The position numbers were made by a program, and so were the translations under genes. 64,000 nt of DNA from Chloroflexota bacterium (GTDB lineage: Bacteria > Chloroflexota > Anaerolineae > Anaerolineales > Villigracilaceae). The notes under the pieces are model-generated. The model did not search any database. It was given only the letters and a program-made list of their open reading frames with translations, and was not told the DNA's origin. The first letter of the stretch is position 1. Each line of letters begins with the position of its first letter. The stretch covers positions 1-64,000 of the forward strand of contig JACRPQ010000005.1 of the NCBI GenBank assembly GCA_016223135.1. Reading direction: 5' to 3'. Shown one piece after another: positions 1,998 through 54,368 of the stretch.

Positions 1998-2036
1998 AGG
2001 TTTTGCGTGCGGAAGTATAACCGATTCCTATTAATC

Positions 2037-2207
2037 ACTCACCTTACGCAGTGCGTCGCACCATACGGGCAGACATGCCCACCCTAACAGTCAAAACGCC
2101 GCTTGGGACTTTCTTTGGCAGCGAAGGTGCGACGCACCCTCTGCGTAACATGAGTTAATCATGTCGCCTGAAAATGCGAGATAAATCTCGCGCTACCGCG
2201 TAAGGTA
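2037..2207. repeat. composite copy of dispersed palindromic repeat A
   Basis: Outer arms CACCTTACGC and GCGTAA (2040-2049 / 2143-2148) enclose a second perfect 12-bp inverted repeat, GTGCGTCGCACC / GGTGCGACGCAC (2051-2062 / 2126-2137). It is followed by an inverted half copy of the repeat A core (2159-2207). Other copies are at 22.1, 31.6, 34.5 and 54.3 kb. No coding sequence is apparent in 1998-2339. Confidence 0.75.
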
Positions 2208-2214
2208 AATTATC

Positions 2215-2270
2215 AAAAAAAAAAAAAAAAAAAAAAAAACAAAACAACAGCGCACAAGGAGTACGCTGTT
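2215..2270 (-). terminator. hairpin plus very long T-tract
   Basis: On the minus strand AACAGCG / CGCTGTT (2264-2270 / 2246-2252) forms a 7-bp stem. It is followed by GTTTTG and then 25 consecutive T (2215-2239 read as A on the plus strand). It lies downstream of the minus-strand unknown operon and reads as its intrinsic terminator. The U-tract is far longer than the usual 6-9. Confidence 0.7.
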
Positions 2271-2339
2271 AGGGCGGGTTGATACGTGACAAGACGCCGG
2301 AACGCAGCGCCTCATTGATGGTTTGAACGTTTTGCGTAT

Positions 2340-2993
2340 CTATTTGGCTGGTTTTCCCTTGGCGCTTTCTGCGGAAGGCGCGGCAGCGGGAGGACGAAGG
2401 AATTCAATCAATCTATTCGCCTCCTCGACAAACCGATCCGCCATTTGCGCTCCGATGAGATCAGGAATGGGCAGGAAAAGAAGCGTTTGAATCATGAATA
2501 TGGTCAACTCAAGAATCGAATCCGCATCTCCTTCGATGAAAGGCTCCTCGCCGTTGTACTTGGCAATGCGGACGCGGAGGTGGGAGCGTTTGTTGATGTA
2601 ATCGTAATAAACGTCCCGATAAAACATCTTCCAGTTGTTGGGAAGTTGATTGGAAATCAGAAAGGCATTGGCGAGTTCCGGTCCATAGAGCGAGATGATG
2701 GTGCGCAGGAAGTTCATCACATCATGCGGAGCGGCATCGCTGATGTCCTCCAGCCGTTTTGCCTGATCGGGCTGCGCCACGTTGAACAGGAGGTCGGTGC
2801 TTTCCTTTCCCAGATAATTATCCAGGCTTGCAAAAATGGCTCTCCAGGTGGTTCCGTCAATTTTATCGAGGCGCTTGTCGAGGATTTCGCGCACCTGGCG
2901 TTCGGCATCAGGATGGGATTTGAGAAATGCCTGCAAGGCTGTCACACTCACAGGCACCCATTCTGGCAACGTTGCAGCGGTAGCATTATCCAT
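2340..2993 (-). CDS. uncharacterised 217-aa protein, last gene of three-gene operon
   Basis: I do not recognise this protein. It is predicted to be largely helical and soluble. It has a Trp/Tyr-rich middle (NNWKMFYRDVYYDYINKR), a hydrophobic helix near residues 163-180 (LELTIFMIQTLLFLPIPDLI) and an Ala/Pro/Lys tail. There is no signal peptide. It follows the 376-aa gene by 29 bp and precedes a strong terminator, so it is the last gene of an operon with two genes that share a domain. The near-membrane helix could be a hydrophobic core rather than a transmembrane (TM) segment. Confidence 0.75.
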   Translation of the reverse strand: MDNATAATLPEWVPVSVTALQAFLKSHPDAERQVREILDKRLDKIDGTTWRAIFASLDNYLGKESTDLLFNVAQPDQAKRLEDISDAAPHDVMNFLRTIISLYGPELANAFLISNQLPNNWKMFYRDVYYDYINKRSHLRVRIAKYNGEEPFIEGDADSILELTIFMIQTLLFLPIPDLIGAQMADRFVEEANRLIEFLRPPAAAPSAESAKGKPAK

Positions 2994-3022
2994 GGTTCAT
3001 TCTCCTTATGCAGTGGGATTAT

Positions 3023-4153
3023 TCAACCGGACGCCCATCTGTTTTGCCCAGAGGGAGGGCTTTCCCGAAGTTCCACAGCAGGCATCGACTCTGTGGATGG
3101 CTGGCGGGGCGGGATGCTGGCTGACGTTGCCATTGATTCGGGAATGGTTTTGTTGTGTTTGAAGATTTCATCAATCAATTCGTCAATCTTCCCCAGGATG
3201 ACGCGGGCATTTTCTCTGCATTCCATTGCAATTACATCAGCCGCTGTGATTGCTTCGTCCATTTCGCTGAGCGCATTGTCAATCGCCCCCTCGATTTCTG
3301 CAGGGCGGAAACTGTCGGGAGATTTGGACATCTTTTCCACTTCCTCGAATGCCCTGACCAGCGACGCCTTGAAAATATCGTCCTGCTTGAATTCATCAGC
3401 CAGGGCGGAGGGGACAATTTCAGTCATCTTGATTTTGCCAAGCTGGCTCTTGATTTTGTTCCAATAATCGCGGCTGTAGATGTCCTGCCGCTTCTCTTTG
3501 CCTTCATACAATCTGGTTCTGGTCTCGTTGCATTGCACCCACTGCTCGCGCGACTTGATGTATCCGTTTACGTAAGCGTCCAACTTGCCCTGGTGTTTTC
3601 GTATCTTCTCCAACAAATCTCTGCCCACGCTGATGATGTCTTTTTCTACAGAGGCTGTCTCTCTGCGGGATTGTTGAACGGCAACTTCGTTATCTTTGCT
3701 TTGGGATCGAGTGACTGTTTCATCCCCTGCGCTCCTGCGGCGGGAATCCAGCGGATCGTCCGGCAGTATAGCCCTCAGGGAGGGGATCAGATCCGTGGCG
3801 TCTTCTTTTGTCAACAGGTGATTGTACAAGTTGCGTACGATGGGGAATAAATCGGTTTGACAGTAGGTCAACACGGACGAGGAATCCTGCAAATATTTGT
3901 ATTGCTCATTGGCAAGCGCAGGATTCGACCCAAATGTATCCCGTTCCTTCACACTCTCCAAACCAAAAATGCTGGCGCGCAATTTTGTCACATTTTCTTT
4001 GAGTGTGTTGCGGAATCTTTCCTGACGCGTAACATCCAACGGAGAAGGTAGACTAAAGGCGGATGTTACAAAAGCCGAATCGGAGGAAAAGAATTCCAGA
4101 AGCTTTTCCATTTTGCTTAGGTATTGCCTTCGCTCGTCATATTCGGGCGGCAT
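3023..4153 (-). CDS. uncharacterised 376-aa helical protein sharing a domain with the gene upstream
   Basis: No known family was recognised. Residues about 48-110 resemble the upstream 177-aa protein. Both have a helical stretch ending in FxxxPxLANxxYKxL, here SNPALANEQYKYL, followed by a second helix containing FPIVRNL. The rest is charged, coiled-coil-like (residues 160-340), with a Pro/Ser-rich tail. There is no TM segment or signal peptide. It begins 24 bp after the upstream stop. An internal Met (MEKLLEFF) at 4111 is an alternative start. It is probably a scaffold or interaction protein of a small complex; the function is unknown. Confidence 0.75.
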   Translation of the reverse strand: MPPEYDERRQYLSKMEKLLEFFSSDSAFVTSAFSLPSPLDVTRQERFRNTLKENVTKLRASIFGLESVKERDTFGSNPALANEQYKYLQDSSSVLTYCQTDLFPIVRNLYNHLLTKEDATDLIPSLRAILPDDPLDSRRRSAGDETVTRSQSKDNEVAVQQSRRETASVEKDIISVGRDLLEKIRKHQGKLDAYVNGYIKSREQWVQCNETRTRLYEGKEKRQDIYSRDYWNKIKSQLGKIKMTEIVPSALADEFKQDDIFKASLVRAFEEVEKMSKSPDSFRPAEIEGAIDNALSEMDEAITAADVIAMECRENARVILGKIDELIDEIFKHNKTIPESMATSASIPPRQPSTESMPAVELRESPPSGQNRWASG

Positions 4154-4177
4154 GACAGTCTCGCTTCTACCAATTGG

Positions 4178-4711
4178 TCAGGGTACGGGAATGCCCAATA
4201 TAAGCCCCAAGGCTTTTGCCAGCGTATATGCCTTGGTAAAAATCGCTCCGGCGCGCGCCGCCTGCTCGACAAATTGGCTGGCGGTATCCAGAACTTTTTG
4301 CACTGTCCACTTTTCACCGGCAGGCGGGGGAGGCAATGCCTGTTCGTCCACCTGCGCTGGAGGATTCTGTTTGCTGGCTTCGACGATTTGCTTGGTTAAT
4401 TTTTCAAAGGCGGGGATGATTTCGAATTCAAAATCAATCTTGGCGGTTTCGATGTTTTTGATGAGTTTGTATCGTTGGTTAGCCAGGGTCGGGTCTGTTT
4501 TGAAAGGGTCATCCTTTTCAAGATTCCCTAAAGCTTCAAGATCCGTTTTGACGTTTACCAACATCTTGCGTACGTTCTTTCGCAATTCTGCCGCATCCCC
4601 CTGGTAAAGTTGGTGGAGTTTTTCGCTTGCCAGCAGCGTATCCACCTGCTGAAGAGTCTTGGTGATCTCTTCGGCATCGCGTTGGGAAGATTCCAGGTAA
4701 TCGCTTGCCAC
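4178..4711 (-). CDS. uncharacterised 177-aa protein, first gene of three-gene operon
   Basis: A perfect AGGAGG (4718-4723 on the plus axis) lies 6 nt before a GTG at 4711, so this start is preferred over an ATG at 4753 that lacks an SD. The helical N-terminal half carries TDPTLANQRYKLI, matching SNPALANEQYKYL in the next gene, so the two proteins share a duplicated domain. A Pro-rich linker (ALPPPPAGE) leads to an Ala-rich C-terminal helix that ends hydrophobic (LGLILGIPVP). A TATAAT lies upstream at 4771-4776 on the minus strand. The function is unknown. Confidence 0.75.
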   Translation of the reverse strand: MASDYLESSQRDAEEITKTLQQVDTLLASEKLHQLYQGDAAELRKNVRKMLVNVKTDLEALGNLEKDDPFKTDPTLANQRYKLIKNIETAKIDFEFEIIPAFEKLTKQIVEASKQNPPAQVDEQALPPPPAGEKWTVQKVLDTASQFVEQAARAGAIFTKAYTLAKALGLILGIPVP

Positions 4712-4770
4712 TCTCCACCTCCTTGCCGCTAAAAACATAAAGCGCCGGCTCAAAATACGGGCGCAAAAGC

Positions 4771-4776
4771 ATTATA
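4771..4776 (-). promoter_or_regulatory. -10 box of the three-gene operon
   Basis: A perfect TATAAT on the minus strand, about 60 nt upstream of the GTG start at 4711. No good -35 is visible at the usual distance. Confidence 0.5.
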
Positions 4777-4865
4777 ACCCACAAGAACAGCTGCGCGACA
4801 ATGAAATTTCGAAAGTGATCTCACCTGAGCGGATGAGCGAAAGAGCGTCATGCCTCAGAAAACGC

Positions 4866-4905
4866 AGAGACCTCGGAAAATCTTCTCGAATTTTCCGAGG
4901 TCTCT
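4866..4905 (-). terminator. terminator of the phn-like operon
   Basis: A 16-bp perfect stem (4866-4881 / 4890-4905, AGAGACCTCGG...CCGAGGTCTCT) with an 8-nt loop. It lies 42 bp beyond the stop of the last permease gene. The inner A/T pairs make it usable in both directions. Confidence 0.8.
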
Positions 4906-4947
4906 GTACACCACTTCAGTGAAATCGTTTCTTGAAGCCGTGAGACC

Positions 4948-6081
4948 TTACGTCAGCCGCTTGCGGATGTCGGAACTGAGGAAATCCATCGCCCAGACGA
5001 CGATGACGATTGCCCAGATGGCGGTGCCAGCCTGATGCCATTTGAAGTCGTTGATGCTCAGGTTGAGGTAATAGCCGATGCCGCCGCCGCCGACAAACCC
5101 GATGATGGTGGAGATGCGCACGTTGATGTCCCAGTGGTAGATGATGTAGGAGATGAAATCGGGGACGACCTGCGGCACGACGCCATAGCGCACGGTGTGC
5201 AGGGGCGGCGCGCCGGTGGCTTGCAGCGCCTCCACCGGACCGGGGTCGATGTTTTCGACTGCTTCAGAGAAGAGTTTTCCCAGCGAAGCAATCGTCACCA
5301 CCGTGAGCGCCAGAAAGCCGGGGAAGGGACCAAAACTCAGCCAGAAGCCGAAGACAGTCGCCATCACCAGCGGGTCGTAGGAGCGCATCAGGTTGAAGAA
5401 AGAGCGGAAGAGGTAGTAAACGGTCGTGCCGAGGCAGCCTTTGCGGGTGATGTTGCTGGCGGCAAAGAAACTGAGCGGCGCGGCAATGACGGTGGCGAGC
5501 GTGGTGGAAAGCAGCGCCATGAAAATCGTGACGAACATGTTGTCCAGCACGTCTTTCAGCGCCTGGCTGGGCTTCAGCTCGCCGACCGGGGTGAGGGTAT
5601 CCACTTCGAGGCGGCTGGCGACGCCATCCACCGTGGATTGGATAGGACGCGCCTGCACTTCGTAGGTGAAGTAACCGTTCGCGTCGGTCTGCGTGCGGAT
5701 GGCGGTCATGGTGCGTCCGTCGGGCAGACGCCAGCGGATGACCACTTCGGAATTAGGCTGCAGGTCGTAGCCTTCGAGGGTGAACTTCTCGAGCGGTTCG
5801 GCGCACAAAACGCTGGGGACGAGACGCGGTCCCTCGGACGGAAGCGATTCCTCGGTCGGGGCGGAACCGCACGGAATGGGGAAGACGAGGGAGACGGTGC
5901 GTGTCTCCACCTCCCGCGTGAACACGTCGGGCGTCAAAAAGGCGGTCAGCAGTTCTTTGCCTTTGGGCAGGTCGAGGAACAGGCGCGGGAAGTCCGCTTC
6001 GGTGACGCGGTACGAAACGGCGAAGGCGGCAATCACCAGCGCCGTGATGAGGGTGTTGCGAAGGATGCGCGCGGTGGGCAT
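4948..6081 (-). CDS. phnE: phosphonate-type ABC transporter permease PhnE (second)
   Basis: This is the inner-membrane permease of a PhnCDE-type importer. The C-terminal half has the transport TM helices and the PhnE coupling-loop region (EALQATGAPPLHTVRYGVVPQ), ending in the characteristic VRISTIIGFVGGGGIGYYL. Between TM1 (about residues 7-25) and the transport core lies about 130 aa of extracytoplasmic sequence with a beta-sandwich look (YDLQPNSEVVIRWRLPDGR), unusual for PhnE. The ATG at 6081 follows the upstream stop by one base (TGACATG), so it is preferred over the ATG at 6117 inside the preceding gene. It is the paralogue of the permease upstream. Confidence 0.9.
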   Translation of the reverse strand: MPTARILRNTLITALVIAAFAVSYRVTEADFPRLFLDLPKGKELLTAFLTPDVFTREVETRTVSLVFPIPCGSAPTEESLPSEGPRLVPSVLCAEPLEKFTLEGYDLQPNSEVVIRWRLPDGRTMTAIRTQTDANGYFTYEVQARPIQSTVDGVASRLEVDTLTPVGELKPSQALKDVLDNMFVTIFMALLSTTLATVIAAPLSFFAASNITRKGCLGTTVYYLFRSFFNLMRSYDPLVMATVFGFWLSFGPFPGFLALTVVTIASLGKLFSEAVENIDPGPVEALQATGAPPLHTVRYGVVPQVVPDFISYIIYHWDINVRISTIIGFVGGGGIGYYLNLSINDFKWHQAGTAIWAIVIVVWAMDFLSSDIRKRLT

Positions 6082-6082
6082 G

Positions 6083-7471
6083 TCACACCAGCCTTTCGCG
6101 CAGTTTGGCGCTGACATAATCCAGCACGATGACGATGAACGCGATGGCGATGAAGACCGCGCTCACGCCGCGCATGTTGTTGACGCGGATGAGTTCGATG
6201 AGCAGAAAGCCGATGCCGCCGCCGCCCACCAAACCGATGACGGTGGCGGAACGCACGTTGATGTCCCAGCGGTAGATGGTGAAAGCAGTGAAGGGCGGGA
6301 TAATCTGCGGGATGACGGCATACCGCACCACTTGCAGCCAGTTTGCGCCGGTGGCGCGGATGGCTTCGATGGGACCGGGGTCTATGCCCTCGATAACTTC
6401 GGAATAGAGTTTACCCAACGCCGCCACCGAGTGCAGAGCCAGCGCCAACATGCCCGCAAACGGTCCCAAGCCCACGATGACGACGAAGATGATAGCGATG
6501 ATGAGCGACTCGATGGAGCGCAGGATGTTGAGCAGCGTGCGCACCGCCACATACACCGCGTAGGTGACGGGGTTGCCGCTCATCAGGTTGCGCGCCGCCA
6601 GAAACGAAAGCGGAATGGCAAAGAGCATTGCCAGCCCGGTTGCCATGAGCGCCATCGAGACGGTGGCAAGCGCGCCCTTCAACACTTCGTTACCAATGAA
6701 CGAGAGTTCGTAGCCGCCGGTCGGGCGGTATTGCTCAAAGTACACGCGGTGGAACTGCGGCAGGGTGGGGTCGGGCGCGGCAACCAGCGCGGTGGAAGGC
6801 ACGCGGATGGTGGTGGTGAGCGAGCCGTTTTCGTCGGTGGTCAACGTCAGCATGGTGATTTCGCCCTCGCCAAGCATGAGGGGGTTGCCGATGGGATTTT
6901 GCCAGAAGACGTTTGTTTCGGCATCCGCCCACATGCCCGTCACGTTGACGATGAGCGTCTCGCCCACGCCGCCGCAATCGGGGATGACCATCGCGGCGCG
7001 CCCGGCGTCTTCACGGCGGGCGGCGGGCGGCTGGCTGGAGCACGGCACTTGCACCGGCACCCACATCTGGTTCACCTCGCGGCGCGGTTGGACAAAATCG
7101 GGGCGCGTCATCGGACGCAGGATTGCCAGAGCGCGGTCCATGTTGGCTTTGCTGAAGTCAATTTCCACCACCTGCCAGCCGATTCCATACGCGGCGGCAA
7201 GCCCGAACAACAGCGGCAGGAGGATGGAACGCGCCCGCCCGTTTGCCAGGCTGATGGCGTCCCAAATGTTCCACAGCCAGATCAAAATCGGCGCGGCGTA
7301 CCAGAGCGGCTTGCCATACCAAACGGTTGTTCCCAGCATCACGACAAAGCCGAGCAGGATGCCGCCTCCGCGATAGCGCTCGCCCAGCAGGAACTGTCCC
7401 AGCCCGGGGAGAAAGAAGGATGCGATTCCGCTTCGCACGACGGGACGGCGGGTTGCTGTTTCGATGGACAT
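6083..7471 (-). CDS. phnE: phosphonate-type ABC transporter permease PhnE (first), with N-terminal membrane domain
   Basis: A 462-aa permease with GGAGG a few bases before the ATG at 7471, just after the phnC stop. The first about 85 residues form an extra hydrophobic module beginning RSGIASFFLPGLGQFLLG. The PGLGQ signature is typical of small TM2/DUF5683-like domains. A Cys-containing extracytoplasmic beta domain follows. The PhnE core has a coupling loop (EAIRATGANWLQVVRYAVIPQ) and ends VRSATVIGLVGGGGIGFLL. It probably forms a heterodimer with the second permease. Usual PhnE proteins are about 260-290 aa, so both extensions are notable. Confidence 0.9.
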   Translation of the reverse strand: MSIETATRRPVVRSGIASFFLPGLGQFLLGERYRGGGILLGFVVMLGTTVWYGKPLWYAAPILIWLWNIWDAISLANGRARSILLPLLFGLAAAYGIGWQVVEIDFSKANMDRALAILRPMTRPDFVQPRREVNQMWVPVQVPCSSQPPAARREDAGRAAMVIPDCGGVGETLIVNVTGMWADAETNVFWQNPIGNPLMLGEGEITMLTLTTDENGSLTTTIRVPSTALVAAPDPTLPQFHRVYFEQYRPTGGYELSFIGNEVLKGALATVSMALMATGLAMLFAIPLSFLAARNLMSGNPVTYAVYVAVRTLLNILRSIESLIIAIIFVVIVGLGPFAGMLALALHSVAALGKLYSEVIEGIDPGPIEAIRATGANWLQVVRYAVIPQIIPPFTAFTIYRWDINVRSATVIGLVGGGGIGFLLIELIRVNNMRGVSAVFIAIAFIVIVLDYVSAKLRERLV

Positions 7472-11249: not shown

Positions 11250-11502
11250 GGGCGCTTTTCTCCAATTCCAACCTTTGTACGATTTGAATCGAGCTGCATT
11301 ATCCCTATACTACTATGTATAAAGCCGCTCTCTCATGCAAATCTGGCATTCCGCATGTTTTCCCGCTCGCTGCGGGGACAATAGTGGCGGGTGACGTCAA
11401 GGGAGAACGCCAGAGATGCACTTTCATGAGGGCGGGTTTATATAGGCGTGAATGGGGGAGAACTTTCAAAAGAATATGTCTATGTACGTGGAGGCGATGA
11501 AC

Positions 11503-11602
11503 CAGTGACCCAGGATGGTCGCTGCCCTTCGATGTCAGTGTGTCGAAGCAAAGGGGAGGTTACTGGGAAGCCAATAGCGAAACCGGCCACGCAGGCCGGT
11601 TT
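11503..11602 (+). ncRNA. candidate structured leader RNA
   Basis: The 446-bp gap before the secreted-protein gene contains three consecutive hairpins. CAGTGACC/GGTCGCTG is at 11503-11510/11517-11524. TTCGA/TCGAA is at 11528-11532/11543-11547. AAACCGGCC/GGCCGGTTT is at 11580-11588/11594-11602. A purine-rich GGGGAGGTTACTGGGAAGCC lies between the second and third. The last hairpin is followed by GTATTT. It is reminiscent of a cis-regulatory RNA but matches none I can name. The rest of 11250-11502 shows no gene. Confidence 0.4.
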
Positions 11603-22103: not shown

Positions 22104-22214
22104 ACTCATGTTACGCGGTAGCGCGAAATTCTTGTCCTGAGTCTGCCAAAGGGTATCTCGCGTTTTCAGGCGACATAAATGTCGCGCTACGAAGAAACTG
22201 CGTAAGGTGAGTTA
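22104..22214. repeat. dispersed palindromic repeat A
   Basis: Terminal arms ACTCATGTTACGC ... GCGTAAGGTGAGT enclose TAGCGCGA, an insert, then the conserved TCTCGCGTTTTCAGGCGACA and TAAATGTCGCGCTA. It is a longer version of the 80-bp form at 34.5 kb. Non-coding. Confidence 0.8.
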
Positions 22215-34534: not shown

Positions 34535-34614
34535 CACCTTACGCAGTAGCGCGAGATTTATCTCGCGTTTTCAGGCGACATAAATGTCGCGCTACGAAGA
34601 AACCGCGTAAGGTA
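34535..34614. repeat. dispersed palindromic repeat A (80-bp form)
   Basis: The most compact copy. Arms ACCTTACGC / GCGTAAGGT (34536-34544 / 34605-34613) enclose two hairpins, GCGAGATTTATCTCGC and GCGACATAAATGTCGC, and an outer TAGCGCG / CGCGCTA pairing. Non-coding. Confidence 0.88.
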
Positions 34615-54280: not shown

Positions 54281-54368
54281 AACTCATCTTACGCGGTAGC
54301 GCGAGATTTATCTCGCGTTTTCGGGCGACATAAATGTCGCCCTACGAAGGAACTGCGTAAGGTGAGTT
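54281..54368. repeat. dispersed palindromic repeat A (88-bp form)
   Basis: Arms AACTCATCTTACGC and GCGTAAGGTGAGTT; the core GCGAGATTTATCTCGCG and GCGACATAAATGTCGC is almost the same as at 34535-34614. Non-coding; 54369-54434 shows nothing else. Confidence 0.88.

Follow-up and report, generated by a model that had tools for sequence, protein, structure and literature searches.

Effector-associated domains (EADs) are small terminal domains, mostly helical, that recur on adjacent gene products and are also found joined to enzymes, peptidases among them (PMC7159879, PMC8195603). Twelve have been described, alongside bacterial death-like domains, and domains of this type couple peptidases and other effectors to the core proteins of conflict systems. 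A CHAT (caspase/separase-like) protein has been noted beside trypco2 (PMC10907252), and the accessory proteins Csx30 and Csx31 are tied to the CHAT protease of Craspase (PMC9729208). Here we compare with these systems a locus of three small genes from a Chloroflexota bacterium.

A three-gene unit between phnE and lepA

Throughout, the window denotes the whole 64,000-nucleotide stretch of DNA that we analysed. On the minus strand, the interval from phnE to lepA holds three genes, A, B and C, separated by gaps of 24 (A/B) and 29 (B/C) bases and forming an operon-like unit; the names lepA and phnE were assigned by reading the translations and not from any library result. The features of the locus are as follows:

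4948-6117: phnE, named from its translation
4865..4906, minus strand: hairpin dividing phnE from the operon (18 pairs, -29.1 kcal/mol)
4771..4776, minus strand: TATAAT, a -10-like box 60 bases before A
4716..4724, minus strand: AAGGAGGTG, ribosome-binding site just before the GTG of A
4178..4711, minus strand: gene A (GTG start, 177 aa)
3023..4153, minus strand: gene B (376 aa)
3143..3697, minus strand: part of B coding for its C-terminal domain (residues about 153-337)
2340..2993, minus strand: gene C (217 aa)
2245..2271, minus strand: intrinsic terminator stem-loop after C (11 pairs, -15.7 kcal/mol)
198-1997: lepA, named from its translation

The three-gene operon proposed by the first-pass annotation is confirmed, with all three genes present in a sister genome (G008), where they occur in the same order and adjoin lepA. 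Identical residues among those aligned between the two species number 157/177 for A, 315/374 for B and 202/217 for C. Ratios of nonsynonymous to synonymous change between the two operons (dN/dS) were 0.10, 0.13 and 0.07 for A, B and C by NG86, 0.18, 0.18 and 0.11 by YN00, and 0.13, 0.17 and 0.09 by LWL85. The underlying NG86 distances (dN/dS) were 0.052/0.536 for A, 0.087/0.688 for B, 0.033/0.444 for C and 0.009/0.323 for lepA, whose synonymous distance between the two species is ~0.3-0.4. With ratios of 0.07-0.18 over three methods, the operon evolves faster than lepA yet is constrained, and A, B and C are real genes under purifying selection.

The same comparison bears on the expression signals, since the first-pass annotation had credited the unit with its own TATAAT, a strong ribosome-binding site and a striking terminator. 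The TATAAT, the AAGGAGGTG site and the terminator stem are all kept in the sister genome, the stem with sequence changes and, in the window, with a T-rich tract following it. At the TATAAT, a consensus scan detected no pair of sigma-70 hexamers, and the counts of promoter-like and terminator-like sites that it returned within 2000-5000 were no higher than in shuffles, so that the case for these signals rests on their conservation in the sister genome.

Apart from a stretch beyond the terminator that bears a repeat, the window and the sister genome are similar from lepA up to and including the promoter of A, after which they diverge and the window runs into phn genes. Conservation of the gene neighbourhood, which the first-pass annotation had named as a check, therefore holds for lepA, which is kept, and not for the phn genes. 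By reading, neither lepA nor the phn neighbours are defence genes.

Several other elements were observed in the window. Directly after the terminator stem lies a 25-base A run (2215-2239; a T run on the minus strand) that is absent from the sister genome. A palindromic dispersed repeat around GCGCGAGATTTATCTCG occurs at 2177-2193, 22171-22187, 34549-34592 and 54299-54315, with 5 matches at up to 2 mismatches against 0.02 expected, and in the sister genome a related copy separates B from C. At 11481-11597 on the plus strand, a c-di-GMP-II-GAG riboswitch scores 40.2 bits against a gathering score of 40, and the open reading frame 3' of it reads, from an internal ATG, like a secreted protein.

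Distribution and genomic site

The operon is rare. In a sample of relatives, A, B and C were each found in 2 of 101 genomes (E up to 0.001), including 2 of the 18 genomes of the genus, and in a phylum sample A and C were each found in 2 of 400. For B, 6 of the 400 gave a match (E up to 0.01), comprising the two operon genomes, one genome from another family of the class (G272, discussed below) and three chance matches, of which one lies inside an acyltransferase (E2) gene (G119, E 6.4e-4) and one inside a GAF-histidine kinase gene (G125, E 0.009), both by ORF reading, while the third was set aside for an internal stop (G400, E 0.003). The C-terminal domain of B occurred in 3 of 298 genomes of the class and, among 89 relatives of G272, in G272 itself, always the same three genomes. 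A scan of genome contigs with C returned only the sister contig DYID01000010.1 (Anaerolinea sp. isolate TT109_57_62).

As lepA is present in all 18 genomes of the genus, its upstream side could be inspected in 15 of the 16 that are without the operon (G004 was omitted, its contig starting 290 bases away), and the operon was absent from all 15 stretches. Thirteen of these sites were readable, the contigs of G006 and G002 ending within 175 bases. In the sister genome, the operon is flanked by lepA and by a zinc-ribbon gene (Pfam Zn_ribbon_8) that we take to be fmdB-like. These two genes adjoin one another without the operon in 4 of the 13 readable congeners, at a distance of ~150-330 bases in three (G005, G003 and G016) and ~890 in the fourth (G009). 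In a BLAST comparison of G008 with G005, the match breaks off 27 bases short of lepA and picks up again 18 bases ahead of the zinc-ribbon gene; the site that holds the operon is thus empty in congeners. In G009 (L049), a different ORF appears to intervene between the two genes, and the spot may thus collect cargo.

The operon is also the lowest-GC part of the window, at 50.4%, whereas stretches of equal length average 57.1% (sd 2.2); GC was as low in 7 of 617 such stretches, all of them overlapping the operon. Its restriction within the genus, variable site and low GC fit the proposal that the operon is accessory, and the distribution is consistent both with gain by transfer and with repeated loss. 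Low GC, a patchy distribution and a variable insertion site would also be expected of decaying or selfish cargo, such as a remnant of a mobile element or prophage that is useless to its host. We regard this explanation as very improbable, given the low dN/dS ratios and the promoter-like box, ribosome-binding site and terminator stem conserved in two species. Searches for mobile relatives likewise speak against it: viral contigs scanned by pattern for B, C and a three-row alignment of the B domain, an approach that reaches mainly close relatives, yielded none, and there was no match in a phage search with B or C or in a plasmid search with A, C or the C-terminal domain of B.

Domain architecture and a module common to A and B

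The first-pass annotation had recognised no known family in the three proteins, and profile searches bore this out, placing A, B and C in no characterised family and giving no convincing Pfam, PHROGs, NCBIfam, PADLOC or PDB match. PHROGs yielded a best E of 0.034 for the operon proteins, PADLOC had no match to any of the three (threshold E 1), and sequence searches of the PDB, run with C itself and with profiles of A, B, C and the B domain, stayed at E 0.18 or above. Candidates that we rejected were Pfam Syntaxin_2 for A (E 0.0045), DHC_N2 for B (E 0.0094) and TAN for C (E 0.045), each below its curated cut-off and at chance level, as well as EntA for A (E 1.4e-4, yet its 21 bits fall far short of the 560 required). 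Pfam contains models for EADs and for bacterial death-like domains, and at E up to 10 no named family of either kind was found for A, B, C or the three members of alignment A4; at the same threshold, the CHAT model PF12770 was matched by none of A, B and C.

In A, a helical module (residues ~44-110) is followed by a proline-rich linker and by amphipathic and hydrophobic C-terminal segments. B carries an N-terminal module (~48-114), a linker and a C-terminal helical domain (~153-336). Its AlphaFold model, weak as a whole (pLDDT 53), consists of helical regions joined by a linker with pLDDT below 50 at 133-170. C is mostly helical in a poor model (pLDDT 42) and has one hydrophobic stretch (159-181; Kyte-Doolittle mean 1.71 over 163-181) that is borderline as a membrane segment.

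The first-pass annotation had described a duplicated domain, and A and the N-terminus of B do have a module in common. Aligned by hhalign, A 53-109 and B 57-113 match at E 2.2e-4, with a probability of just 45%. Of 1000 shuffles made in each of three ways, none attained the Smith-Waterman score of A 44-110 against B 48-114 in either species (z 6.8-9.8), though the best full shuffle for the window pair scored 68 against a real score of 69. Thus the same small non-catalytic domain is found on neighbouring gene products, weakly by hhalign and above 1000/1000 shuffles. The motif xxPxLANxxYKxL, said to end this module, is present in B of the window and, save for the last residue, in A (PTLANQRYKLI), but not in B of the sister genome (PVLATERDKHL). 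C showed no detectable similarity to A or B by hhalign or Smith-Waterman, and so no third copy of the module, and by Smith-Waterman the two halves of B are not copies of one another.

A possible link to CHAT proteases

The lead to function comes from the C-terminal domain of B. Residues 151-355 matched a protein of G272 in a profile search at E 1.6e-13, and hhalign aligned the two domains at E 3.8e-9 with a probability of 96%. Identity is 26% and includes conserved W, GY, MD and EC positions, and the Smith-Waterman score of 157 compares with shuffle maxima of 60-75 (0/1000 in each of three shuffle kinds). Since shuffles that preserve position modulo 7 never reached the score, the match is specific and not a generic heptad pattern.

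The G272 protein is encoded on the minus strand of L010 (1-1515) in a frame that is open at the contig end, and a GGAGGAG preceding codon 79 points to this codon as the probable actual start, which would make the domain N-terminal. The last 166 residues of the frame match a protein annotated as CHAT from a Nostoc plasmid (WP_179077053.1) by tblastn at E 3e-11, with 32% identity and 98% coverage. The matched part of the Nostoc protein, about residues 3-176, overlaps the start of its Pfam CHAT domain (93-405), which is followed by NACHT, and a trypco2 gene lies just before it. These last residues of the G272 frame also match the window genome's own CHAT protein (BLASTP E 3e-5 over 60 residues) and show a weak similarity to HetF (E 0.01). 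No CHAT domain was called by Pfam on this contig-end-cut frame, even at E up to 1, and PADLOC gave no match for it; the catalytic part is unseen because this sole fusion, the one copy of the B domain found joined to an enzyme-like region, is cut by the contig end. A single plasmid match of the G272 leader domain (E 0.5) was ignored. On sequence comparison, then, the C-terminal domain of B is homologous to a predicted N-terminal domain in a protein that continues into the beginning of a CHAT region.

In the window genome, we found no second copy of the B domain and one CHAT gene, on another contig, followed by an NTPase-like region (AAA_16 and NACHT below cut-offs). Each of the two operon genomes has one CHAT match, but with such matches in 7 of the 18 genomes of the genus this co-occurrence of 2/2 is not significant (p 0.14). 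In both, the CHAT gene (L064 6197-9750 and L065 5793-9197) comes after a small ORF and lies, in opposite orientation, close to a conserved gene that the two genomes share (88.5% DNA identity); the arrangement of the CHAT genes nevertheless differs between them. The surrounding ORFs gave weak matches only (B at E 0.035, C at E 0.093 and 0.34), which we rejected.

Combining the module common to A and B with the CHAT-linked domain of B, which together suggest an adaptor complex, we tentatively propose, as a reading with somewhat less than an even chance of being right, that A-B-C is a lineage-restricted accessory operon producing a scaffold or adaptor complex for CHAT protease signalling of the conflict or regulated-death type. 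A small complex of the three proteins, as the first-pass annotation had imagined, is plausible; its alternative of a stress system found no support, the only functional lead being CHAT (caspase-like) conflict signalling. A and B would bind one another via their shared module, the C-terminal domain of B would regulate or recruit a caspase-like enzyme, as the leader domain of the CHAT protein presumably does, and the hydrophobic segments of A and C might tether the complex to the membrane or act on it.

Such an operon would work like an EAD system. As in the NTP-dependent conflict systems of this kind, its small helical domains are without enzymatic features, one module is common to A and B, and the terminal domain of B occurs on a CHAT-type protein in a relative. 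Unlike EADs, the C-terminal domain of B is ~185 aa long and matched no Pfam model that names an EAD; a single copy of it was found in the genome, and the operon consists of A, B and C only, with no peptidase, NTPase or vWA/MoxR gene and no Pfam match of the three to such a component. The G272 homologue resembles the CHAT-NACHT protein in matching its N-terminal ~175 residues, but B has no CHAT and the G272 leader domain lies outside the matched part.

The main specific rival is a Craspase-like role in which B is a substrate, its long linker being cut by a CHAT protease encoded elsewhere to free a domain, much as TPR-CHAT cleaves Csx30 (PMC9729208). The helical regions and poorly predicted linker of the weak B model would suit such a role, as would the CHAT match in both operon genomes; a homologous domain at the head of a CHAT-type protein, however, suits a regulator better than a substrate, no CHAT gene lies within the operon, and no PDB chain convincingly matches B. 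We therefore consider it improbable. A, B and C would resemble Csx30 and Csx31 as accessories of a CHAT protease, and appear set apart from them in that PDB searches gave no convincing hit for any of the three and the operon lacks type III-E genes.

The main dull rival holds that the domain is a general helical oligomerisation module, that the operon is an accessory scaffold of a cell-envelope or cytoskeleton-like kind with no link to defence, and that CHAT in G272 is one of its many uses. This is rather unlikely but deserves weight: the weak Pfam matches fall mostly in helical or coiled-coil families (DHC_N2 being the commonest, in 2 of the 3 members of alignment A4, best E 0.0023), and A and C carry hydrophobic segments. 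The specificity of the G272 match under modulo-7-preserving shuffles, and CHAT being the only other domain context found in the searches made, argue against this rival.

Among the matches listed in a search of the CHAT-domain literature, which was by text and not by protein sequence, no paper named an A-B-C operon. A more speculative extension, to which we give roughly one chance in four of holding, is that the C-terminal domain of B founds a new family of adaptor domains, with A-B-C a new protease-free scaffold operon that couples in trans to CHAT proteases and is a minimal bacterial equivalent of death-domain scaffolds. Bacterial caspase-like systems have been found partly via known adaptor domains, and an unlisted adaptor family would conceal not only its own operons but also the CHAT proteins relying on it. 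If the adaptor reading is true, the operon would be a seed for finding more of them and a small three-protein complex for direct tests of coupling to CHAT.
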